A DNA stretch of 64,000 nt from an uncultured Ignavibacteriota bacterium. Its GTDB lineage: Bacteria > Bacteroidota > Ignavibacteria > UBA10030 > UBA8401. The translations under genes and the position numbers were made by a program. This document shows, piece after piece, positions 32,505-45,498 of the stretch (its first letter is position 1; every line of letters starts with the position of its first letter). The stretch lies in NCBI GenBank assembly GCA_903861125.1, contig CAIOTF010000023.1, positions 372,001 through 436,000 on the forward strand, given 5' to 3'. The notes below the pieces were generated by a model that made no database searches, was not told the origin of the DNA, and saw only the letters and a program-made list of their open reading frames with translations.

Positions 32505-34085
32505 TTATGTTTTCTTCTTTAATAAGTGATAAGTGATTGAATCGACAAGTGCCTTCCAACTTGCGTCAACAACATCCGATGAAACGCCGACTGTATTCCA
32601 CGACGATGTGCCGTTCTTCGTTTCGATTAGTACGCGAACCTTTGCCGCGGTTGCATTCTGTGAATCCAGTACGCGCACTTTGTAATCTGTTAATTGAATT
32701 TCCTTCAGTTCCGGATAGAACCGTTCAAGCGCTTTTCGCAGCGCTTTGTCCATTGCGTTCACCGGACCGTTCCCTTCGGCGGCGGTCATTTCGGTTTCTT
32801 CGCCGACACGGATCTTGATCATCGCTTCGCTTCGAGCATCAACATCGTTTGAATCTTTGTGGATGCTGATCTTGAATCTTTCCAACTCGAACAATTTTTG
32901 GATCTCTCCGGTGTGTTTCTTTACCAGCAATTCGAACGACGCCTCGGCATCCTCAAAATAATATCCGTAATGTTCCATCTCTTTCAGTTCTTCAACAATC
33001 CTCTGGGCTGCGGGGGATTTATCGTCGATCTTTAAGCCAAGCTCTTCCGCTTTATATAGAACGTTGCTCTTTCCGGACAGATCGGACATTAATACACGCC
33101 GCACATTCCCGACAACCTCCGGTTCAACATGTTCATACGTCTTCGGTGTTTTCATCACCGCGCTGACATGTACCCCCCCTTTGTGGGCAAACGCACTCTC
33201 GCCGACGAACGCCATATTTTTTTTATGCTTCAGATTCGCCAGTTCGCTTACGTAGCGGGAAACATCCGTGATTTTTTTCAACTGTTCTTTTCCAACGGTT
33301 TCACATCCCATCTTAATTTCAAGGTTGGGGATAATGGAACAAAGATTGGCGTTTCCGCAGCGCTCGCCATAGCCGTTGATCGTTCCCTGTACGTGTGTTG
33401 CTCCGCTCTGAATCGCGGCAAGCGCATTTGCAACACCGACTTCCGAATCGTTGTGAGTGTGAATTCCCAGTTGAACGGTGATCGCACCTTTCAGTTCATC
33501 AACAATGCCGGATACTTCCCACGGCATCGTGCCGCCGTTCGTATCGCACAAAACAATCACATCGGCGCCGGACTGCTGCGCCGCCTGCAATGTTTTGATC
33601 GCGTAAGCCTTGTCGGACTTGTATCCGTCAAAGAAATGCTCTGCATCATACACAACTTCTTTGCCGTTCTTTTTCAAGTACGCCACCGAGTCGGAAATGA
33701 TCTCGAGATTCTCTGCCTCCGAGATCTGCAGCGCTTCTTTCACATGAAGTATCCATGTTTTGCCGAAGATCGTCACAACCGGTGTTTGCGCATCGAGCAG
33801 CGCCTTAATGTTTGCATCATCTTCAACTCTGTTCTTTGCGCGGCGCGTACTTCCGAACGCGGCAATCTTTGCATGAACAAAATGAATACTGCGCGCCTTT
33901 TCAAAGAATTCCATATCCTTCGGATTGGAGCCGGGCCATCCCCCTTCGATGTAGTCGATGCCGAATGCATCAAGACGCTTTGCGATCTTGATCTTGTCCT
34001 CAGCCGAGAAAGAAACTTCTTCCCCTTGGGTTCCATCCCGCAGCGTTGTATCGTATGTAAATATTTTTTTCATTGTCGTATGCAT
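32505..34085 (-). CDS. cimA: (R)-citramalate synthase
   Basis: 526 residues, of the CimA branch of the LeuA family: [17 protein letters not shown] (residues 10-26), [12 protein letters not shown] (a CimA hallmark absent from LeuA), [16 protein letters not shown] metal motif and the C-terminal regulatory domain (about 390-526). It condenses pyruvate and acetyl-CoA to citramalate, giving 2-ketobutyrate for isoleucine without threonine deaminase; no ilvA is in the window, in agreement. Two starts are possible, ATG 34085 or ATG 34073; neither has a clear ribosome binding site. Confidence 0.92.
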
Positions 34086-34149: not shown

Positions 34150-35205
34150 TTATTTCTTCCAATTTTCCGGCCGCAATCCCCGTACCGCTTCGCCAGCTTT
34201 CCACATTTCGGAATTTTTCCATTCGTCCAGCTCTTTTTGCAAAATAGAACGGTAATCCGGCGAACTTGTTGAATCGAGAACCCGTTTTGTTTCTACGCCG
34301 TATTGAACATCGCGGTACAGCAATTCGAACAACGGACGGTTTGCCGTTTCAAATTTTTTCGCCCAATCAAGAGCTCCGCGCTGAGCGGTGACCGAGCACG
34401 CCGCAAACATCCAGTCCATTCCGTATTTTCCTACGAGAGGATACAGGCTTTGTGTGGCTTCTTCCACTGTTTCGTTGAATGCTTCGCTGGGAGAATGACC
34501 CATTTGACGCAAAACGTCATATTGCGCCTTCATCAATCCGGCAATTGCGCCCATCAACACGCCGCGTTCGCCGGTAAGATCGGAAAGAACTTCTTTTTCA
34601 AATGTTGTTGGGAATAAATATCCTGAACCTATCGCGATACCGCATGCTATCGCACGCTCACGCGCTTTACCGGTTGCATCCTGAAATACCGCAAAGCTGG
34701 CGTTAATTCCGCTTCCGGCCAGGAAATTACTCCGCACCGTACGTCCGCTTCCTTTCGGCGCAACCAGAACCACATCAACATCCGCAGGCGGAATAACATT
34801 TGTTTGATCTTTGAAAACGATGGAGAAGCCATGCGAAAAATATAATGCCTGTCCTTTTTTCAAATTCTTTTTTACAACTTCCCACTGCTGCTTTTGCCCG
34901 GAGTCGGAAAGAAGGTATTGAACGATCGTCCCTTTTTGGATCGCTTCTTCAATATTTGAGAACAGGTTTTTTCCTTCCACCCAGCCGTCGCGAATCGCGT
35001 CACTCCATCCCTGTCCCCCTTTGCGCTGGCCGACAATAACATTAATGCCATTGTCGCGCATGTTGAGCGATTGTCCGTATCCTTGCGGACCGTAACCGAT
35101 AATTGCAACAACTTCGTTCTTTAAGAATTCCTTTGCTTTCTCAAGCGGATATTCCTCGCGGGTAACAACTTCTTCAACTGTTCCGCCAAAATTGATCTGT
35201 GCCAT
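34150..35205 (-). CDS. ilvC: Ketol-acid reductoisomerase
   Basis: 351 residues, class I. NADPH fold GYGPQGYGQSLNMRDNG (residues 38-54), VLVAPKGSGRTVRSNFLAGSG, and the knotted C-terminal domain with the acidic metal ligands in DLTGERGVLMGAIAGLM and FNETVEEATQSLYPL. It converts acetolactate or acetohydroxybutyrate to the dihydroxy acids for valine, leucine and isoleucine. AGGAGAG lies 5 bp before the ATG. A 232-bp gap to gltD suggests a second transcription unit begins here. The next enzyme, IlvD, is not encoded in the window. Confidence 0.95.
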   Translation of the reverse strand: MAQINFGGTVEEVVTREEYPLEKAKEFLKNEVVAIIGYGPQGYGQSLNMRDNGINVIVGQRKGGQGWSDAIRDGWVEGKNLFSNIEEAIQKGTIVQYLLSDSGQKQQWEVVKKNLKKGQALYFSHGFSIVFKDQTNVIPPADVDVVLVAPKGSGRTVRSNFLAGSGINASFAVFQDATGKARERAIACGIAIGSGYLFPTTFEKEVLSDLTGERGVLMGAIAGLMKAQYDVLRQMGHSPSEAFNETVEEATQSLYPLVGKYGMDWMFAACSVTAQRGALDWAKKFETANRPLFELLYRDVQYGVETKRVLDSTSSPDYRSILQKELDEWKNSEMWKAGEAVRGLRPENWKK

Positions 35206-35437: not shown

Positions 35438-36859
35438 TTACGGAAGCGTTGTTGCTCCCATCAAATATTTATCCACGCTGCGCGCCGCTTTGCGTCCTTC
35501 GCTGATCGCCCATACAACAAGCGATTGACCGCGGCGCATGTCTCCGGCTGAAAATATTCCCGGTACCGAACTCATATACTCTTTGTCGGTGGAAACGTTG
35601 CTGCGTACATCAAGAGCAACGCCAAGCTCATCAAGCAGGCCGCTCTTTGTCGGACCATTGAATCCCATCGCCAGTAAAACCAGATCAGCTTCAAGGGTGA
35701 ACTCTGTTCCGGTGACGGGTGCAAAATTCGGCGGCGGACCTACGCGGATCGCGTGAAGTTTTGAAACATTTCCGTTTGCATCACCTTCAAATTTTGTCGT
35801 TGCAAGTGCCCAGTCCCGCGTTCCCCCTTCTTCGTGTGAACTTTCAGTTCGCAATTGCAGCGGCCATTGCGGCCACGGCGTTGAGGCGGCGCGTTCAAGC
35901 GGCGGCTTGGGCATAATTTCAAACTGATGTACTGATTTTGCTTTTTGCCGCAAACTTGTTCCAAGACAGTCCGCGCCTGTATCGCCGCCGCCGATAATGA
36001 TCACGCGTTTCCCCGTAGCGAGAATATCTTTTGCGGGATCTGATGTATCACCGGCGTTGCGGCGATTTTGCTGCGGAAGAAATTCCAAGGCAAAATGGAT
36101 CCCCTTCAATTCTCGTCCCGGTACTTTTAGGTCGCGCGGAGATTCCGATCCGCCGCACAACAGGATCGCATCATAGGACCGCCTCAATTCTTCGGCGGAA
36201 ATATTCACGCCAACATTTGTCTTCGTTGTAAAAACAATTCCTTCCGCCTGCAATTGTTCTACGCGGCGATCAAGCAGATGTTTTTCAAATTTAAAGTCGG
36301 GAATTCCGTACCGAAGCAATCCGCCAACGCGGTCATTCTTTTCGTACACTGTTACGCGGTGTCCTGCGCGATTCAATTGCTGCGCCGCGGCCAAACCGGA
36401 TGGACCCGATCCAATCACGGCTACTGTTTTACCGGTTCGTTTTGCCGGCGGTTCAGGCTTTATCCAGCCGTGTTTGAATGCATACTCTATGATTGTCCTT
36501 TCAATCACCTTGATCGTCACGGGCGGTTCATTGATACCCAACACGCATGATGCTTCGCACGGCGCGGGACAGACGTTACCGGTAAATTCGGGAAAATTAT
36601 TTGTTGAGTGCAAAATTCGTATCGCTTCTTCCCAGCGATTTTTATAGACGAGATCATTCCAATGCGGGATGACGTTGTTTACGGGACAACCCGATTGACA
36701 GAACGGTATTCCGCAATCCATGCAGCGGGCACCCTGCGTTTGCACTTTTTCTTCTGCAAAAGCATTGTACACATCGCGCCAATCCTCCAGGCGTTCTAAC
36801 GCGGGTCTGCGCTGCGGAACTTCGCGCCGATATTCCATGAATCCGGTTGGCTTACCCAT
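35438..36859 (-). CDS. gltD: Glutamate synthase (NADPH) small subunit
   Basis: 473 residues. N-terminal Cys-rich segment for [4Fe-4S] clusters ([16 protein letters not shown], about 42-57), then FAD-binding ([21 protein letters not shown]) and NADPH-binding ([13 protein letters not shown]) folds, closing with the [21 protein letters not shown] motif. It passes electrons from NADPH to the large subunit, which makes two glutamates from glutamine and 2-oxoglutarate. Its start overlaps the end of gltB by 8 bp. Confidence 0.95.
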
Positions 36860-39800
36860 TTACCGCCTCCTTGTCCGAACCATTCTTTTTCAGGGTGACC
36901 GTCTCCTCGAGTGCTTTTTGTTTTGCATTTAAGACACGCTTATAGTCATGCGGAAATACTTTCACAAACTTCGTCTTGAATGTTTCCCATTCATTAAGGA
37001 TCCTCTGTCCGCGCCGGCTTCCGGTCAGATCAACATGTCTCTTGACGAGATTTTGCACGAGACGTTCGTCGTCATTGTTAAGAGCGTCAAGATCAACGAT
37101 GGATTTATTGCACATTTTTGATGCAAATTCTCCATCCTCATCCAATACAAACGCATACCCGCCGGACATTCCTGCTGCGAAATTCTTTCCAGTCTTTCCA
37201 AGCACCACAACGATGCCGTTCGTCATATATTCGCATCCGTTTGCACCGACAGATTCAACCACAACGGTCGCGCCGGAATTCCGGACAGCAAAACGCTCGC
37301 CGGCTTTTCCGCCAAAGTACGCTTCGCCGCTCGTCGCGCCGTATAACACAACGTTGCCGACAATCGAATTATCTTCGGGAACAAAGCTGGAATTTTTCGG
37401 AGGGAATATAATGATTTTTCCTCCGGACAGCCCTTTGCCGACATAATCGTTTGCATCTCCTTCAAGTTTCAGCGTTACACCCTTGGAAAGAAATGCTCCG
37501 AAACTTTGTCCTGCCGAACCGGTAAAGTTGATTGTGATCGTGCTTTCCGGCAGTCCTTCTGCGCCGTAATATTTTGCAATGCGCCCGCTGAGCAAAGCTC
37601 CGACTGTTCGGTGAACATTTCTGATCGGCAGCGATAATTCAACCGGTTTCTTTTCTTCAAGTGCAACTTTTGTCTGCTCAAGCAGCTGATAGTCGAGTGC
37701 TTCGTTAATACCGTGGTCCTGCGGAATCATACAGCGTCGTCCGATTCTTAACGGCACCGTCGGCTGATGAAGAATGGAAGAGAGATCAACCCCCTTTGCT
37801 TTCCAGTGATCAATATCCTTTCTCTGTTGCAGCATGTCAACACGTCCGATCATTTCGTCCAGCGTGCGGAATCCAAGTTTTGCCATAATCTCACGGACTT
37901 CATCGGCGATATAAAAGAAAAAATTAATAACATGTTCCGGAGTGCCGGTGAATTTTTTTCTCAGCTCCGGGTCCTGCGTTGCAATTCCAACGGGACATGT
38001 GTTGAGATGACACTTCCGCATCATGATGCACCCCATTGCAATGAGAGGCGTTGTTGAGAAACCGAATTCTTCGGCGCCAAGCAGCGCGGCAATGACAACA
38101 TCGCGCCCTGTTTGCAGTTTTCCGTCCGTCTGCAGGCGAACGCGGCTGCGAAGATCGTTCATCACCAATACCTGCTGTGTCTCGGCAAGACCAAGTTCCC
38201 ATGGAACCCCGGCGTGTTTGATAGATGTCAGCGGTGACGCACCTGTTCCGCCATTGTCTCCGCTGATCAGGATCATATCGGCGTGTGCTTTGGCAACACC
38301 GGCCGCCACAGTTCCAACGCCGACTTCGGAAACCAGTTTCACCGAAATTCTTGCGATCGGATTCACATTCTTCAGATCATAGATCAATTGCGCAAGGTCT
38401 TCTATAGAATAGATGTCGTGATGCGGCGGCGGCGAAATAAGTCCGACACCGGCAATTGAATGTCTCGTCTTTGCAATCACTTCGTCAACTTTGAAACCGG
38501 GAAGCTGACCTCCCTCGCCCGGCTTCGCTCCTTGTGCTATTTTTATCTGTATCTCATCCGCATTCACAAGATAATTAGCCGTTACCCCAAATCGTCCGGA
38601 GGCAACCTGCTTAATCGCACTTCTCCGCAGATCACCGTTGGCATCGGAACGAAAACGCGCTTCATCTTCTCCCCCTTCACCCGTGTTCGATTTTCCGCCG
38701 ATGCGGTTCATGGCAATAGCTATCGTTTCGTGTGCTTCTTTGCTGATCGATCCGAACGACATTGCTCCCGTAACAAACCGCTTTACAATCTGCTTTGCCG
38801 GTTCAACATCTTCTATGTGAACACTTCTCGTTCCTTCTTTAAACTCCATTAATCCGCGAAGCGTGAAAAATTCTTTGTTCTGATCGTTGAGAACGCTTGT
38901 AAACTCCTTGAATGTCTTGAAATCCCTTTTGCGAACGGATTGCTGAAGTTTCGTTACCGTTGTTGGATTGATGAGATGACGTTCGCCGCTGGTGCGGAAG
39001 TGATAATTTCCGCCGAGATCAAGCTCGGTGTTTGCCTGCGAAAATGGCTGAAATGCAAATTCATGTTTCCTTCTCGCCTCTTCCACCAGCACATCCAGCC
39101 CTATCCCTTCAATGCGCGATGATGTGCCGTGAAAATATTTTTCCACCACTTTTTTATTCAATCCGATGATCTCAAAGATCTGCGCCCCTCGATAACTTTG
39201 CAGCGTCGAAATTCCCATTTTGGAAAAGACCTTTAACAATCCTTTCCCAACTGCTTTTTTGTAGTTTTTCAGCGCATATTCTGCTGTTACGTCTTTTGAT
39301 AATCTTCCTTTGTTGGCAAGATCCTCGATCGTTTCTATGGCAAGATACGGATTGACGGCGCTTGCTCCGTAGCCGATCAATAAACAATAATGCATTATTT
39401 CGCGCGGCTCTCCGGATTCAACGACAAGAGCAACCTGTGTGCGAGTTTTTTCTCTTACCAAATGATTGTGTACGGCCGTCATTGCCAGTAAACTCGGGAT
39501 CGGCGCATATTCTTCATCTGATCCGCGGTCGGAAAGAATGATGATGGAATATCCTGACTCGATTGCCAGCGAAGCGCGGCGGCAAAGTCCGTCGAGCGCC
39601 CGCTCCAGTTCCAGTTCGCCGCCGTTCACACGGAACAGCATCGGCAGTGTTGTTGTCAGAAAATCTCCCTGCGAAACACGTCGCAGTTTTTCCAATTCAA
39701 CATTTGTCAGTATCGGATGCTGCAGTTTCAGTGTATGACAATGCATCGGTGTTTCTTCCAGAATATTTCTTTCGGTGCCGATGTAGCTTGTCAGCGACAT

Positions 39801-41423
39801 AACAAATTCTTCGCGGATCGGATCAATTGGCGGATTAGTCACTTGCGCGAACAATTGTTTAAAGTAATTGTACAGCGACTGCGGTTTGTCGGACAAGCAC
39901 GCCAGCGGTGTATCGGTTCCCATCGAACCGATCGCCTCCTCGCCGTTCACTGCCATCGGCGTCACGATCATCCTCACATCTTCGTCGCTGTAACCGAACA
40001 TTCGTTGCCGCTGCACAATATCTTTTTCGCTCAGCACGTGAGCGCGCGGAGGCTCGGCAAGCTGCTCAAGTGTTATTTGATTCTCTTTGATCCAGTTTCC
40101 GTACGGCTTGCGCGAACTTAATTGCGCTTTGATCTCTTCATCAAGAATCACCCGTTTCTGTTCAAGGTCAACAAGCAGCATTTTTCCCGGTTCAAGTCTC
40201 CCCTTCGTTTTTACCCGCTCCTGTTCAATCGGAAGCACACCGACTTCTGATGCCATGATCAGCAATCCATCGTGTGTTTCAATATACCGCGCGGGACGAA
40301 GTCCGTTCCGGTCAAGTGTCGCACCAATAACTTTTCCATCTGTGAAGGCGACCGCTGCCGGACCGTCCCACGGCTCCATCAGAGATGCATGATATTCATA
40401 GAATGCTTTTTTCTCCGGCGACATGGTTACATCCATGCTCCACGCTTCAGGGATCAGCATGGACATAACGTGCGGCAGACTTCTTCCGGAGTGATACAAT
40501 AGCTCAACGGCGTTATCGAGCGCAGCGGAATCGCTTCCGTCGGGCTGAATGATAGGAAATAATTTTTTCATGTCGTCGCCGAACAGATCGGATTTCAAGA
40601 CTGACTGGCGTGCATACATCCAGCTAACATTGCCGCGCATTGTGTTGATCTCGCCGTTGTGACTCACAAATCTGAAAGGGTGCGCCAATTGCCAGTTCGG
40701 CATTGTGTTGGTGGAAAAACGTTGATGCACAAGACAAAGTGCGCTTTCGGTGTCGGTGTCGGACAGTTCGCTGTAAAACTGCTCTATCTGCGGAGCAAGC
40801 AGCAGCCCCTTATAAATAATTACGCGCGACGAAAGCGAAGGAATGTAAAAAAAATCTTTTTCTTTAATATCGGAAGCATACAGCTCAGCTTCCGCACGTT
40901 TCCGCACAACAAAAAGTTTGCGGTCGAATTCTTCCCGCGTCATTCCTTCTGCGCGGCGGATAAATATCTGCTCTATATAAGGCTGTGACGCCCGCGCTAT
41001 GCGGCCGATCGCATCGGCGCCGACCGGCGTATCTCTCCACCCAAGCACGGTCAGATCTTCTTCGCGTGCAATACGCTCTAAAATTCCCTCGCAGATCAAT
41101 CGAGACGTTTGATTTACCGGCAGGAATACAATTCCGACGCCATACTCTCCCTCTTCGGGAAGCGTGATACCTATGCTTTTACATTCTTTCACAAAAAATT
41201 TGTGAGGAATTTGAATTGTTATCCCTGCTCCATCCCCTGTTTCAGGATCGCAGCCGCACGCACCCCGGTGCGTAAGATTGATCAGAATCTCAATTCCTTT
41301 TGTGATAACATCGTGAGACCGCTCTCCTTTGATGTTCACAATAAAACCGATCCCGCACGCATCGTGTTCGTTGCGCGGATCATAAAGAGGAAAATTGTCC
41401 CCGTGCTGGTATGGTTCTTTCAT
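36852..41423 (-). CDS. gltB: Glutamate synthase large subunit
   Basis: 1523 residues, full length. The class II glutaminase domain begins at Cys23 ([15 protein letters not shown]) after a short propeptide; then the central domain, the FMN-binding synthase domain ([40 protein letters not shown]), the [3Fe-4S] Cys cluster ([19 protein letters not shown]) and the beta-helical C-terminal domain. It joins nitrogen assimilation to the branched-chain genes: ilvH ends 2 bp before its start, and glutamate is the amino donor for Val, Leu and Ile, and the precursor of proline (proC downstream). Confidence 0.97.
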
Positions 41424-41425
41424 GC

Positions 41426-41953
41426 TTACACTTCTCCGACAAATTCTCTTTTTAAGGCTACGCGTCCGGTGCGGGCAATTTCCTTGATGTGGAACGGTTT
41501 CAGCATTTTTATAATCGCATCAACCTTTTGTCCGCTTCCGGTTGATTCCACCGTCACTGTTTTATGACTGATGTCGATGATCTTGGCGTGAAAGATCTCC
41601 ACGATCTGCATAATCTCCGAACGATTGTCCGGCGTTGTGCCGATCTTGATCAGCGCAAGTTCCCTCTCCATAAAACTGTCATACGTCAGGTCGACAACTT
41701 TCAGCGTATCGATCAATTTGTTCAGTTGTTTTATAATTTGTTCTATAATCGCGTCGTCTCCACGGGTAACAATCGTCATTCGAGAGATAGAAATATCCTC
41801 GGTCGGTCCGACCGTGATACTTTCCAGATTGTAACCTTTTGCCGAAAACATCCCCGCAACGCGGTTCAAAGCACCGAACTTATTCTCCAATAAAACGGAG
41901 ATTGTATGTTTGTGCGTTGTTTCGTCGGCCGGTATTTCTGTGCTATTGCTCAT
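41426..41953 (-). CDS. ilvH: Acetolactate synthase regulatory (small) subunit
   Basis: 175 residues: N-terminal ACT domain ([23 protein letters not shown] within the first 40 residues, then [22 protein letters not shown]) and C-terminal domain typical of IlvH/IlvN. It binds valine and confers feedback inhibition on the IlvB subunit, encoded 3 bp upstream. The 2-bp gap to gltB implies a single ilvB-ilvH-gltB-gltD message. Confidence 0.95.
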
Positions 41954-41956
41954 ACG

Positions 41957-43726
41957 TTATCCTTTGGTAATAGTGACCATTTCAATATCTGATTCTTTTT
42001 CGCCATCGGTAGACGCCGTCTTTTCTTCCGGCATATCAATAATCTCGTGATATGTCTGTCCCGCTGGAATCATCGGGTATACATTATCCTCTTTTACCAC
42101 TTTGAATTCTGCAAGCACCGGACCGTCAATGGCAAACATTTTTTTAATAACGTCCTCCACCTCATCCGTTTGCGTTGCGCGAAAGCCCGGAATACCGTAC
42201 GCCTCTGCAAGTTTCACGTAATCCGGCCCAAACATTTCCACATGCGAATACCGTTTCCGCCAGAACAGCTCCTGCCACTGGCGCACCATTCCAAGATAAC
42301 CATTGTTGAGGATAATTATTTTTATAGGCACGCTGTGTTCACGGATGGTCGCCAGTTCTTGAATATTCATCTGAAATCCTCCGTCGCCACTGATAGAGAT
42401 AACCGGGAAATCTTTTCGAGCAAAAGCAGCACCCATCGATGCGGGAAGAGAAAATCCCATCGTTCCAAGTCCCCCGGATGTTAAATGCGTGCGCGGGTAC
42501 ACATATTTGTAAAATTGTGCCGTCCACATTTGATGCTGCCCTACATCGCTGACGATGACGGCTTTCCCTTTTGTGATCTCCGAGATTTTCTGAATAACAT
42601 GCTGCATCCGGATATATTTTCCGTTTCTGTAACGAAGCGGATGTTCTTCTTTCCAGGTTTTTATTGTCTGGATCCAATCCTTTGTATCAAGCGCGGTCAC
42701 GGACGGCATTAATTGCTGAAGCACTTTTTTTACATCGCCGACGATCGGAACATCAACCTTAACATTCTTGCTGATATTCGACGGATCAACATCGATATGG
42801 ATCTTTTTTGCTTCGGGTGCAAACGCATCCGTCTTACCTGTTACTCGATCGTCGAATCGAGCACCGACCGCAATAAGCAGATCGGAATAATTCACGGCTG
42901 TATTGGAGTACCATGTGCCGTGCATTCCAAGCATGCCGAGCGAAAGTTCGTCGGTCTCCGGAAATGCGCCGAGTCCGTGCAGTGTTGTGGTAACGGGAAT
43001 TTTTGTTTTGTGCGCAAACTTTGTCAGCTCTTCTGCGGCATTGGAAAGAATTGTGCCGCCGCCAACATACAGTATGGGACGTTTTGCTTTTGCAATAAGT
43101 GCGATCGCCTTATCCAATTGTTTTTGATGTCCTTCAACGTGGGGAACGTACGAACGCATCTTCACGCTTTTCGGATAACTGAACATTGTTTTCATCGCCA
43201 TCACATCCTTGGGAAGATCGACTAGTACGGGCCCCGGCCGGCCGGTGGTGGCAACATAAAATGCTTCCTTAACGGTGGCGGCGAGTTCGTTAACATCGCG
43301 GACAAGATAATTATGCTTTGTGATCGGACGAGTGATGCCGACAATATCCGCTTCCTGAAATGCGTCGTTTCCAATCAGCTTCAAGGCAACCTGTCCCGTA
43401 AATACGACGATGGGAACCGAATCCATGTATGCATCGGCAATTCCGGTCACTGTGTTTGTTGCTCCCGGACCGGATGTAACAAGGGCCACGCCGGGTTTGC
43501 CGCTGGCCTTTGCATAACCTTCTGCGGCATGCACCGCACCTTGTTCGTGCCGGGTAAGAATGTGTTTGATGTCGGAAATATCATGAAGCGCATCATAAAT
43601 GCCGATCACGGCACCGCCGGGATACCCGAAAACGATATCGACTTTTTCTTCGATCAACGATCGAACAAAGATTTCTGCGCCGGTCATTTGCCGTTGCGGA
43701 GACGGGGGAGAAGTATGTTGAGTCAT
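41957..43726 (-). CDS. ilvB: Acetolactate synthase catalytic (large) subunit
   Basis: 589 residues from ATG 43726. The frame is open to 43756, but that extra part would run into the attenuator hairpin and an AGGTG sits 6 bp before ATG 43726. ThDP enzyme motifs: VFGYPGGAVIGIYDAL, the catalytic Glu in LTRHEQGAVHAAEGYA, the FAD region, and the ThDP/Mg motif GDGGFQMNIQELATIREHS with LNNGYLGMVRQWQ. It makes acetolactate and acetohydroxybutyrate. It is the first gene of the cluster and probably under leader-peptide attenuation (43749-44003). Confidence 0.96.
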   Translation of the reverse strand: MTQHTSPPSPQRQMTGAEIFVRSLIEEKVDIVFGYPGGAVIGIYDALHDISDIKHILTRHEQGAVHAAEGYAKASGKPGVALVTSGPGATNTVTGIADAYMDSVPIVVFTGQVALKLIGNDAFQEADIVGITRPITKHNYLVRDVNELAATVKEAFYVATTGRPGPVLVDLPKDVMAMKTMFSYPKSVKMRSYVPHVEGHQKQLDKAIALIAKAKRPILYVGGGTILSNAAEELTKFAHKTKIPVTTTLHGLGAFPETDELSLGMLGMHGTWYSNTAVNYSDLLIAVGARFDDRVTGKTDAFAPEAKKIHIDVDPSNISKNVKVDVPIVGDVKKVLQQLMPSVTALDTKDWIQTIKTWKEEHPLRYRNGKYIRMQHVIQKISEITKGKAVIVSDVGQHQMWTAQFYKYVYPRTHLTSGGLGTMGFSLPASMGAAFARKDFPVISISGDGGFQMNIQELATIREHSVPIKIIILNNGYLGMVRQWQELFWRKRYSHVEMFGPDYVKLAEAYGIPGFRATQTDEVEDVIKKMFAIDGPVLAEFKVVKEDNVYPMIPAGQTYHEIIDMPEEKTASTDGEKESDIEMVTITKG

Positions 43727-43748
43727 AGAACACCTGATAAATAAATAA

Positions 43749-43774
43749 CGATACAAAACCTCGGTTCAGAGGTT
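43749..43774 (-). terminator. ilv attenuator terminator hairpin
   Basis: On the minus strand AACCTC (43774-43769) pairs with GAGGTT (43762-43757) around the loop TGAACC, followed by TTTGTATCG and a T-rich run. It ends about 25 bp before the ilvB start. The stem is short, so the strength is uncertain. Its 5' arm is part of a segment that can pair elsewhere, as described for the antiterminator. Confidence 0.55.
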
Positions 43775-43846
43775 ACGCCCTGTTATTATTTCTCACGTGT
43801 TGCTGATTGATTGTAGTGTGATATGTTTTTTTGGGAGTAACCTCTG
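43767..43846 (-). promoter_or_regulatory. ilv antiterminator pairing
   Basis: Segment CAGAGGTTAC (minus strand, 43846-43837) is perfectly complementary to GTAACCTCTG (43776-43767), with three further G-C pairs after one mismatch (43833-43835 with 43778-43780). The second segment includes the 5' arm of the terminator, so the two structures exclude each other. The first segment starts 7 nt after the leader stop codon, where a terminating ribosome would cover it. Confidence 0.6.
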
Positions 43847-43853
43847 CGTTTTC

Positions 43854-44003
43854 TTAGCCGATAATAGTTAGGCGTAGAATCGCAAAAGTAATTCCCAAAA
43901 GAATAATAATGCCGCTCAGCGGAAGAATTGTTGCCGGTACAGTAATCGTGCGAACGCGCTGGCGTTTCGAAACGATTTCTGTATGTGTGTTGTATGCGGG
44001 CAT
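43854..44003 (-). CDS. ilv leader peptide (attenuation control)
   Basis: A 49-codon frame reads from ATG 44003 to TAA 43854, too short to be noticed as a normal gene. The N-terminus is polar (MPAYNTHTEIVSKRQRVR); residues 20-49 contain 16 Ile, Leu or Val among 30, including three Ile codons and two Leu codons in a row (SGIIILLGITFAILRL) and TIIG at the end. It lies 128 bp before ilvB, behind a promoter and ahead of mutually exclusive hairpins. Low Ile or Leu tRNA charging would stall the ribosome and favour the antiterminator. A small membrane peptide is the alternative reading. No strong ribosome binding site precedes the ATG. Confidence 0.62.
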   Translation of the reverse strand: MPAYNTHTEIVSKRQRVRTITVPATILPLSGIIILLGITFAILRLTIIG

Positions 44004-44048
44004 TCTTTTGTTGGTTACGTTAGAAGTGCAACTGGGTTACACATATAT

Positions 44049-44076
44049 AAGATACAAGAATCCTTTCCGTTGTCAA
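44049..44076 (-). promoter_or_regulatory. Candidate promoter of the ilv leader and operon
   Basis: On the minus strand TTGACA (44076-44071) and TATCTT (44054-44049) are 16 bp apart, a near-consensus sigma70-type pair. Transcription would begin near 44042, about 40 nt before the leader-peptide ATG. Confidence 0.55.
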
Positions 44077-44098
44077 GAAATAATTTTGTATCTTATAA
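44070..44098 (+). promoter_or_regulatory. Candidate promoter of mnmE
   Basis: TTGTCA (44070-44075) and TTATAA (44093-44098) are 17 bp apart, shortly before the mnmE ATG at 44113. Its -35 box overlaps the -35 box of the ilv promoter on the other strand. The short leader leaves room for little more than a weak ribosome binding site. Confidence 0.4.
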
Positions 44099-44112
44099 AA
44101 ATTTATTTTTTT

Positions 44113-45498
44113 ATGCATTACCAATCACACGATACTATTGCCGCAATAGCAACTCCGCCGGGTGTTGGCGGTATAGCCGTTATAAGAATAAGCGGACCGG
44201 AGACATTTTTTGTTGCCGATTGTCTGTTCGTGGGATCGGCTCCGGTTAAAAGTTCTCCCTCGCACACCATTCTCTATGGAACAATTGTTGACCCTGTTTC
44301 ACGTGAAACTATTGATACAATTCTTTTATCCGTGTTCCGTAATCCAAACTCATATACAGGCGAAGATGTTGTAGAGCTTAGTTCGCACGGTGGATACTTA
44401 GTTTCTCAAAAGATTTTATCGTTGTTGTATAAATCTGGTGCCCGGCCGGCTTCGCCGGGGGAGTTTACTCTTCGCGCCTTTCTTAATGGTAAATTGGACC
44501 TTGTACAAGCCGAAGCTGTTGCCGATATAATCCATTCAAAGACGGAGAGGGCGCACCGAGCCTCCGTTGAACAGTTACGCGGAAAACTCTCTGAAATTGT
44601 TAATGATCTAAGAAAAGAAATCCTCGACACATGCTCATTGCTTGAGCTGGAATTAGATTTTTCGCAGGAGGGGATTGAGCTTACCGATAAAACCATTGTG
44701 GTGGATAAGCTTTTAGGGGTCGAAACTATCATTAAAAAGCTTTCTTCAAGCTACCACGAAGGGAAAATCATAAAAGAGGGTATTAGGGTAGCGCTTGTTG
44801 GCAAACCTAATGCGGGCAAGTCCAGCTTGTTGAATATCCTATTGCGGGAAGATAGGGCTATCGTCAGTGAAATTGCCGGCACAACGCGTGATACTATTGA
44901 AGAGAGTATTCTGCTGGACGGTATCGAGTTTGTCTTTAATGATACGGCCGGATTGAGAGCTTCAACAGATATGCTTGAACTGGAGGGGATAAGAAGAACC
45001 TCTAAAGCTATCGATAGCTCAAATGTTATAATTATGCTTGTTGATGGATCAGCCCCCATTTCTGAGCCCGATTTGGTTTTTTATAATGAAATAAATTCGA
45101 AATACAAAGACAATAAATCTATTCTTTGGGTAATAAATAAATCGGATATTAAGATAAATCATTTAAATATCGAGAACATTGATCACCCATTATGGATCTC
45201 GTGTAAATCCCATGATGGCATTTCGGAGCTCAAGCAAAAACTTGTCGCGCTTTCGTTGCCACGATATGACTCTACTGCTTCTTCTGTTACAATTACGAAT
45301 GTAAGACACAGGGATGCTCTTGAGCAAGCCTCTGTTTCGGTAAAAGCTGCTGCCTCTGCAATACAGGGCGGTCTCGGTGGCGATTTTGCGGCTATCGATC
45401 TGAGGGCCGCGCTTAATTATCTGGGAGAGATTATTGGAATTACTACACCGGACGATATTCTAAACAACATCTTTTCAAATTTTTGCATAGGAAAGTAA
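44113..45498 (+). CDS. mnmE: tRNA-modification GTPase MnmE
   Basis: 461 residues from ATG 44113, which places the family N-terminus (HDTIAAIATPPGVGGIAVIR) at the start. The frame is open to 43909, but that part is antisense to the ilv leader and not conserved in type. G-domain: GKPNAGKS (230-237), DTAGLR, NKSD. The C-terminal CIGK is the conserved Cys-containing end. With MnmG it builds the 5-carboxymethylaminomethyl group on U34 of certain tRNAs. mnmG follows after 66 bp. A parS-like site lies inside the gene. Confidence 0.96.
   Translation: MHYQSHDTIAAIATPPGVGGIAVIRISGPETFFVADCLFVGSAPVKSSPSHTILYGTIVDPVSRETIDTILLSVFRNPNSYTGEDVVELSSHGGYLVSQKILSLLYKSGARPASPGEFTLRAFLNGKLDLVQAEAVADIIHSKTERAHRASVEQLRGKLSEIVNDLRKEILDTCSLLELELDFSQEGIELTDKTIVVDKLLGVETIIKKLSSSYHEGKIIKEGIRVALVGKPNAGKSSLLNILLREDRAIVSEIAGTTRDTIEESILLDGIEFVFNDTAGLRASTDMLELEGIRRTSKAIDSSNVIIMLVDGSAPISEPDLVFYNEINSKYKDNKSILWVINKSDIKINHLNIENIDHPLWISCKSHDGISELKQKLVALSLPRYDSTASSVTITNVRHRDALEQASVSVKAAASAIQGGLGGDFAAIDLRAALNYLGEIIGITTPDDILNNIFSNFCIGK
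44295..44310. other. parS-like ParB binding site 1 (inside mnmE)
   Basis: TGTTTCACGTGAAACT matches the bacterial parS consensus TGTTTCACGTGAAACA at 15 of 16 positions, with a perfect 14-bp palindromic core. It is one of three such sites in 3.2 kb near the candidate origin. Confidence 0.8.

Follow-up and report, generated by a model that had tools for sequence, protein, structure and literature searches.

The window, a stretch of 64,000 nucleotides from an uncultured Ignavibacteriota bacterium, carries on its minus strand a run of genes for branched-chain amino acid (BCAA) synthesis and glutamate synthase. The acetolactate synthase large subunit gene ilvB (41957–43726, start ATG at 43726; TIGR00118 above cut-off) is followed by ilvH for the small subunit (41426–41953; TIGR00119 above cut-off) and gltB for the glutamate synthase large subunit (36852–41423; NF008730 above cut-off). 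The gene for the glutamate synthase small subunit, gltD (35438–36859), was named from its position and resemblance, and the two frames beyond it, ilvC-like (34150–35205) and leuA/cimA-like (32505–34085), from resemblance. The order from ilvB-ilvH-gltB-gltD into the ilvC-like and leuA/cimA-like frames is kept in relatives, an observation of gene order and not of co-transcription.

A motif scan, with comparison by eye, placed a promoter-like pair (TTGACA, 16 nt, TATCTT) at 44049–44076 on the minus strand. This pair, which had formed part of the original prediction, is indeed present but does not exceed chance, with 1 site of the type found against 1.3 expected. Similar pairs occupy, by eye, the same position before the leader within this genus and in neighbouring genera. 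Directly past the −10 box lies an inverted repeat, GTGTAAC-CCA-GTTGCAC (44026–44042, minus strand), a form of which is recognisable by eye in the 10 leaders of the window's clade; it may serve as an operator or fold into a hairpin at the transcript's 5' end. A divergent plus-strand ORF (43909–45498), presumably an mnmE-like gene, runs into the leader as mechanically called; its likely start (MHYQSHDT...) lies near 44113, outside the leader.

Leader frame and proposed control codons

Between the promoter-like pair and ilvB lies a frame of 49 codons (MPAYNTHTEIVSKRQRVRTITVPATILPLSGIIILLGITFAILRLTIIG; 43854–44003, minus strand, with ATG at 44003 and TAA at 43856–43854), the peptide of which ends in SGIIILLGITFAILRLTIIG. 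Ile, Leu and Val make up 16 of its last 30 codons, the run IIILL included. This content was compared with that of the 421 frames of 35–80 codons present in any of the window's six reading frames, which hold a mean of 6.0 such codons in their last 30 (sd 2.6). Only two of the 421 reach 16, namely the leader and one other, and the frame as first described is borne out by both the sequence and this count. A chance frame was rejected as an explanation on the basis of this comparison together with the conservation described below.

The window's family, f1, comprises 22 genomes, 18 of which have an ilvB orthologue of at least 68% identity, with G001, G014, G019 and G020 being the genomes without one. 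With L004 left out, as its contig ends 48 nt upstream of ilvB, the leader was found before ilvB in 16 of the 17 assessable genomes, with peptides of 48–52 residues. In the seventeenth, G011, the apparent end of ilvD lies directly upstream of ilvB (L027, by eye), and a leader precedes ilvD on another contig (L179; E 0.024 with covariance model R1 and 4.7e-6 with R2, for which see below). In G010 (C200:41458–43244), ilvB appears as two overlapping matches, one of them containing two TAG codons, which is either an assembly error or a broken gene.

For wider comparison, a set of 48 leaders from six families was used, consisting of the 16 f1 leaders before ilvB and 32 class loci. The distance from leader stop to downstream start is 101–150 nt across this set; for this distance, as for the other tests on the 48 leaders, starts in the 32 class loci were chosen by pattern, and in L155, L159, L171 and L173 the start so chosen is that of a short frame and not of ilvB or gltB.

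The proposed control codons, ATT CTA CGC CTA ACT ATT ATC (43860–43880, minus strand), are suggested by codon conservation, a class-wide bias and the stall simulation described below. Both CTA codons are kept in 15 of the 16 family leaders, the exception being L010, and in nine genes of the window CTA accounts for 18 of 431 Leu codons. In L010 the ilvB gene is without ATT among its 36 Ile codons, yet ATT is present in the leader. Across the 48 leaders, CTA provides 103 of 294 leader Leu codons (35%) against 68 of 1945 (3.5%) in the downstream frames, and ATT provides 277 of 324 leader Ile codons against 904 of 1924; the CTA bias is weaker in family f6 (6 of 93 leader Leu codons against 9 of 502 downstream). 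Ile, Leu and Val make up a mean of 64% of the last 22 codons of the 48 leaders, compared to 24% in the downstream frames. Judging from CTA and ATT, it is the leader codons that are conserved and not the residues alone. This choice of codons is an indirect sign of a putative response to the charging of the cognate tRNAs. The CUA bias matches that of the Salmonella leu attenuator, in which, according to the accessible portion of the source, changing three CUA codons to CUG reduced sensitivity (PMC1183508). The present bias offers an independent lineage for testing the selective-charging theory of control codons.

The C-terminal pattern I-x-L-G-x4-I-L-x-L-x-I-x-G is kept in most of the 16 family leaders, which could point to arrest of the nascent peptide, its hydrophobic C-terminus sensing a metabolite in the exit tunnel and not tRNA charging. 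Such sensing by a nascent peptide within the exit tunnel takes place in TnaC. Here, however, conservation is found at the level of the codons (CTA and ATT), contrary to gene usage, and the peptides vary between families while the richness in Ile and Leu persists. The conserved Leu-Gly is explained by the pairing of segment 1 (see below), and peptide arrest is regarded as very improbable.

Alternative helices of the leader RNA

Three segments of the minus strand allow two helices to be drawn. Segment 1 (TTTTGGGA, 43893–43900) lies within the peptide codons; segment 2 (CAGAGGTTACTCCCAAAA, 43829–43846) begins 7 nt past the leader stop and has either segment 1 or segment 3 as its partner; segment 3 (GGGCGTAACCTCTG, 43767–43780) pairs with segment 2 in the 2:3 helix. 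Segment 1, read from 43900 to 43893, is complementary to TCCCAAAA (43836–43829), corresponding to the classical segment 1:2 pairing. Within 2:3, CAGAGGTTAC (43846–43837) is fully complementary over 10 nt to GTAACCTCTG (43776–43767), exactly as the first reading of the sequence had it. The RNA from 43935 to 43726 has a predicted folding energy of −58.7 kcal/mol (z −6.1 against 200 shuffles).

The helices were examined with an alignment-free swap test, in which each segment is paired in turn with its own partner and with partners from other genomes and the energies are compared. In the 48 leaders, helix 1:2 gave −17.39 with own partners and −15.19 with within-family swaps, none of 5000 permutations being as good. 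The corresponding values for helix 2:3 were −24.94 and −21.45, and here too none of the 5000 permutations did as well; it should be borne in mind that the model with which the 32 leaders beyond the family's ilvB set were found contains 2:3 and so favours sequences able to form it. By family, the P values for 1:2 were 0.0000 in f1 (3000 permutations), 0.002 in f6, 0.02 in f14 and 0.39 in f24, while for 2:3 they were at most 0.001 in each of these four.

Covariation in 2:3 was also seen on alignment A5 (43 sequences), with double changes in 10 of 13 pairs (43 cells) and a score of 0.208 compared to 0.088 when shuffled and at most 0.048 when slid. Pair counting on family alignment A3, made from sequence alone, showed none, as the helix hardly varies there and L017 is out of register. 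As A5 was fitted to the 2:3 structure, more weight is given to the alignment-free swap tests. Conservation of the frame and of the pairing in close relatives was thus checked and found in the family leaders, the swap tests and A5. Judged on these comparisons, 1:2 and 2:3 are mutually exclusive, partner-specific helices, so placed that either a stall or the stop codon would decide between them.

The strong conserved structure could also be expected of an element that works without a ribosome, such as a riboswitch, a T-box or a protein-bound RNA. No leader or riboswitch family matched the leader strand at the leader: Rfam gave no match at gathering score in the window stretch (in a copy that may lack the ilvB-OMG model), nor any leader or riboswitch match in nine loci at E values up to 1. 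A riboswitch or T-box was rejected for this lack of matches, and since any ribosome-independent element would leave the frame and its codon bias unexplained, this whole class of explanation is considered extremely improbable. The nearest family by name, Phe_leader, matched weakly on the plus strand opposite the leader (43810–43935; 22 bits where the gathering score is 55, E 1.1), which is probably due to chance.

The codons and swap tests uphold the original reading, in which Ile/Leu control codons and a 2:3 helix resembling an antiterminator make up a leader-peptide attenuator, and that the element is a BCAA leader-peptide attenuator of some form can be held with high confidence. A peptide of cognate codons, alternating helices and a biosynthetic operon downstream are features shared with the ilv, leu, thr, his and trp attenuators of E. 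coli and Salmonella, as far as these are set out in the available sections of PMC1183508. A BCAA-rich short frame with alternative structures is likewise shared with the ilvB leaders of Corynebacterium and other Actinobacteria and with the ilvB-II motif, as presented in the consulted parts of PMC10272879 and PMC1262725.

The OFF state: a probable lock on the ilvB ribosome-binding site or a possible terminator

Past segment 2 the first reading had placed a terminator, i.e. a hairpin with a T-rich tail. The hairpin exists (AACCTC-TGAACC-GAGGTT, 43757–43774, minus strand; segment 3:4) and shares the second complementary segment. The tail did not hold up in the same way: in the window the sequence after the hairpin (TTGTATCG...) is no clean U run, and a standard terminator scan of the window reported nothing at the site, though a laxer scan does score ACCTCTGAACCGAGGT with TTTGTATC there. 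In the window and the nearest genera this hairpin is predicted to sit as the tip on a longer one, which covers the ilvB Shine-Dalgarno and also draws in bases of the AUG. The 5' arm of this lock is AACACGTGAGAAATAATAAC (43782–43801), and its 3' arm (43729–43749, both minus strand) includes the Shine-Dalgarno CAGGTG (43736–43731). Neither the lock hairpin, nor the protector helix 1:2, nor the continuation of the cluster into the ilvC-like and leuA/cimA-like genes had been noticed in the original prediction.

In seven spaced sequences of the window's clade the lock arms are partner-specific, with −18.84 for own arms against −13.67 for swapped arms (P 0.0004); this gap of −5.17 compares with −0.44 (sd 1.05) for base-shuffled arms. 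No such preference was detected in the six other family leaders, outside the window's clade (P 0.36). In L010 the lock helix is rebuilt with other bases, GUAC/GUAC replacing ACAC/GUGU. Other leaders show a direct pairing with the Shine-Dalgarno: in genus g2 segment 3 itself pairs with it (GCAACCUC/GAGGUUGC, L013 and L014), and direct pairings in family f6 are GUUCGCCU/AGGCGAAC in L152 and GUUCACCU/AGGUGAAC in L168.

Over the 48 leaders the predicted unpaired fraction of the Shine-Dalgarno is 0.29 compared to 0.39 in shuffles (Wilcoxon P 0.0002). Own partners of the lock also beat within-family swaps when all families were pooled (0 of 5000 as good), with f1 being the only single family to reach significance (P 0.0003, against 0.12 in f6, 0.09 in f14 and 0.46 in f24). 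Enforcing 2:3 opens the Shine-Dalgarno further in 12 of the 16 family leaders, while in L007, L008, L011 and L012 it becomes no more open.

These results bear on a classical transcriptional attenuator, in which the tip hairpin would be an intrinsic terminator, 2:3 the antiterminator and the lock an optional second layer. The leader, the control codons and the 1:2/2:3/3:4 logic are all classical. The laxer scan also found terminator-like sites in 8 of the 48 leaders, the window's included, where shuffles yield 1.3; six of the eight belong to the window's genus and the neighbouring genera g7 and g9. In addition, L017 has by eye a run of 8 T past a short hairpin, which the laxer scan leaves unscored. 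On the other side, the standard scan is empty at the site, the window's U run is interrupted and, by eye, varies among relatives, and the laxer scan found no such site in 40 of the 48 leaders. From this distribution, termination is possible in the window and its neighbours and is not a kept feature of the system. It should also be noted that in L042, a Balneolales-type leader, the ilvB start lies by eye about 24 nt past segment 3, too short for a separate terminator, so the output stage must differ there.

Taken on sequence evidence, the lock is better supported than the terminator as the OFF state, and the original claim of an intrinsic terminator in that role was not upheld as it stood, given the longer hairpin over the ribosome-binding site and the 8 of 48 count. 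A transcriptional attenuator of the classical kind is rated as unlikely.

This arrangement also sets the leader apart from described attenuators. Unlike in the enteric examples, as covered by the accessible text of PMC1183508, there is no conserved intrinsic terminator here, 3:4 appears to extend to, or be replaced by, a lock on the ribosome-binding site, the hosts belong to other phyla and gltB is among the targets. In the ilvB leaders of Corynebacterium and other Actinobacteria a U run follows a terminator stem, an arrangement largely missing here, and the present leader, unlike theirs as described in the available parts of PMC10272879 and PMC1262725, also precedes ilvD or gltB. Actinobacterial leuA has a leucine leader, the LEU element, for which pairing with the Shine-Dalgarno is also described; in the sections consulted its architecture is another one, a pseudoknot with a base stem formed between the run of leucine codons itself and the Shine-Dalgarno (PMC1262725).

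Ribosome position and proposed mechanism

The effect of a ribosome was simulated in seven of the 16 family leaders, with the ribosome covering 11 nt beyond the A-site codon. At equilibrium, 2:3 does not form in the window (probability 0) on a leader free of ribosomes, nor when the A site lies 18 codons ahead of the stop or at the stop itself; its probability is 0.45 for an A site 12 codons ahead and 0.24–0.48 for one 8 to 2 codons ahead. The proposal that a stall at the Ile/Leu run releases 2:3 is consequently modified: 2:3 is not predicted at the first codon of Ile-Ile-Ile, 18 before the stop, and is predicted from 12 before it. As 2:3 forms there in the simulation, the decisive codons would be those from about 12 before the stop onward, the stretch in which the kept ATT and CTA codons are located.

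With the A site at 12 codons before the stop, the probability of 2:3 is 0.84 in L003, 0.92 in L005, 0.99 in L012, 0.94 in L013, 0.18 in L028 and 0 in L010, and it varies with ribosome position in five of the seven simulated leaders. For L028, where the switch at equilibrium is slight, and L010, where it is absent, co-transcriptional folding must be assumed. The unpaired fraction of Shine-Dalgarno and AUG in the window rises from 0.23 to 0.36 upon the simulated stall, a modest switch at equilibrium. Across the simulated leaders, the start site opens clearly further in L003 and L013, a little further in L002 and L005, and not at all in L012 despite formation of 2:3.

A mode of action may be proposed on these grounds, starting from the presumed translation of the frame. 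When the leader carries no ribosome, or when its translation has been completed, segment 1 would pair with segment 2, leaving segment 3 free for the long hairpin that buries the ribosome-binding site and AUG of ilvB (OFF). A ribosome sitting at the leader stop would cover segment 2 and likewise give OFF. A shortage of Ile or Leu would be expected to stall the ribosome on the ATT and CTA codons 8 to 2 before the stop; with segment 1 covered or already passed, 2:3 would pair, the lock would be blocked and ilvB could be translated. Polarity would extend the effect to ilvH-gltB-gltD and perhaps to ilvC-leuA. The signal read by the leader would be the charging of the Ile and Leu tRNAs.

The preferred reading is that of a ribosome-mediated attenuator which senses Ile/Leu tRNA charging and has the translation of the first gene as its main point of action, to which a probability of roughly two in three is given. 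If the element is a BCAA leader-peptide attenuator, translation is probably its main output. In the parts of the sources that were available, the translational attenuation of erm genes is similar in that a stalled leader ribosome is thought to open an inhibitory structure at the start site, the cause of the stall there being an antibiotic and here presumably uncharged tRNA (PMC8274638, PMC5118997).

Spread beyond the family and target genes

To search for the leader elsewhere, covariance model R1 was used, which spans the last 21 codons through segment 3. Matches at E ≤ 0.1 were obtained in 77 of 391 class genomes, both inside f1 and in further families; the strongest match beyond f1 had an E value of 8.6e-9. 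On inspection, 32 further loci (f1, f5, f6, f14, f24 and f27) have a leader frame and a cognate gene, and these are the class loci of the 48-leader set. Eight weak R1 matches were dropped for want of a leader or a cognate gene (L174, L177, L178, L180, L185, L186, L187 and L189). One of these, L177, lies in the window's own genome, outside the window.

A second model, R2, built from 43 sequences, matched 98 of the 391 class genomes at E ≤ 0.01 and 34 of 395 phylum genomes, 7 of them outside the class. On 80 named records it gave 8 matches at E ≤ 1: at E ≤ 0.001 two Ignavibacteriae, a Bacteroidetes MAG, a Caldithrix MAG and an Aliifodinibius MAG, and more weakly (0.014–0.066) two Balneolales/Balneolaceae MAGs and a Rhodothermus MAG. 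All eight have, by eye, an Ile/Leu/Val-rich frame in the correct place. The occurrence of such an attenuator on the Bacteroidota/Ignavibacteriota side, as given in the original reading, is supported. One attenuator system would thus be present in a quarter of the searched genomes of a large, mostly uncultured class, and beyond it.

Most known cases of amino acid genes under leader-peptide attenuation come, to our knowledge, from Proteobacteria and Actinobacteria. According to the available part of a 2010 survey, only ermC was known outside these two groups before the Firmicutes case of that survey itself (PMC2965389), and a leucine-rich attenuator of Staphylococcus was a later addition, as given in the accessible text of PMC5794164. 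For Bacteroides, the portion consulted of a transcriptome study speaks broadly of short frames that resemble leader peptides (PMC7366714), and leader genes in Bacteroidetes are noted for another reason in the accessible section of PMC4833913, which also cites earlier surveys of attenuators. The ilvB-OMG motif is listed with 41 representatives from various phyla in the available part of PMC10272879. No report of this leader system, or of a leader peptide before gltB, was found in the literature searched, which does not include the earlier attenuator surveys (Lopatovskaya 2010, Vitreschak 2004); attenuators from this part of the tree may already appear in the former. The core logic is that of classical ribosome-mediated attenuation, and what would be new is the probable output stage, the targets and the host range.

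Gene context was determined for 59 loci (32 from R1, 20 from R2 and 7 named records), covering part of the 98 class and 34 phylum matches. The first gene was taken as the first of IlvB, IlvH, GltB, GltD, IlvC, LeuA/CimA and IlvD found downstream by tblastn, and not as the first gene of any kind. By this definition ilvD comes first in 38 loci, ilvB in 15 and gltB in 4 (57 of 59). L205, an R2 match, shows neither such a gene nor a peptide and was counted as a miss among the 59. Outside the class, ilvB is first in all five phylum matches examined of the seven (G395, G526, G562, G597 and G680).

The four loci with gltB first are L163, L173, L195 and L198; the gltB start lies about 30 nt past the matched stretch in three of them, and about 180 nt past it in L173, with a short frame between. 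Three genomes (G056, G058 and G326) have two leaders each, one before ilvD-ilvB and one before gltB. Glutamate synthase is therefore likely a real target of the leader, and the two branches can be tested apart in these genomes. The loci with gltB first and the separate gltB leaders support the link with glutamate synthase which the original prediction had drawn.

Within f1, the gltB of the ilv cluster was compared in nine genomes besides the window's own. It occurs together with gltD in the window's genus (G000, G004 and G005) and in genera g7 and g9, while g2, g3 and g4 have a different type (49–52% identity), with no gltD found in the stretch. No gltB was detected in the examined stretches of G012 (g6) and G011 (g5). 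The slot after ilvH is thus seen to hold two types of glutamate synthase according to genus (L215–L221 and L227). Given the two types and the separate copies, glutamate synthase would have come under the leader more than once. As glutamate serves the BCAA transaminases as amino donor, a link between gltB and the ilv genes makes sense. In E. coli, the coupling between BCAA and nitrogen assimilation is made by the protein Lrp. The attenuator described here, which seemingly acts at translation initiation, sets a nitrogen-assimilation gene, gltB, beside BCAA supply.

In a broader view, to which even odds are assigned, an old leader-peptide switch with translational output may run BCAA synthesis across Ignavibacteria-, Balneolales-, Caldithrix- and perhaps Rhodothermus-like bacteria, with CUA as a sensor codon for Leu, like that of the enteric leu system. 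Genes for glutamate synthase, of at least two types, would have been recruited to it several times, both within the ilv operon and as a separate unit under a leader copy of its own, so that the charging of Ile and Leu tRNAs would set the supply of the amino donor.

Some loci have additional sequence behind the leader. In L155, L159 and L171, about 315–378 nt with short frames lie between the leader and ilvB. Two of these short frames begin with VRSD or VRSN, as ilvD does; the possibility that they are remnants of ilvD was given up as blastp lent it no support. In G361 a remnant of ilvD (codons 4–49, 74% identical) was found between the leader and gltB (L202, L224), which suggests that a leader and the start of ilvD may have been copied and that gltB then came to follow. 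Another leader of the same genome precedes ilvD (L203).
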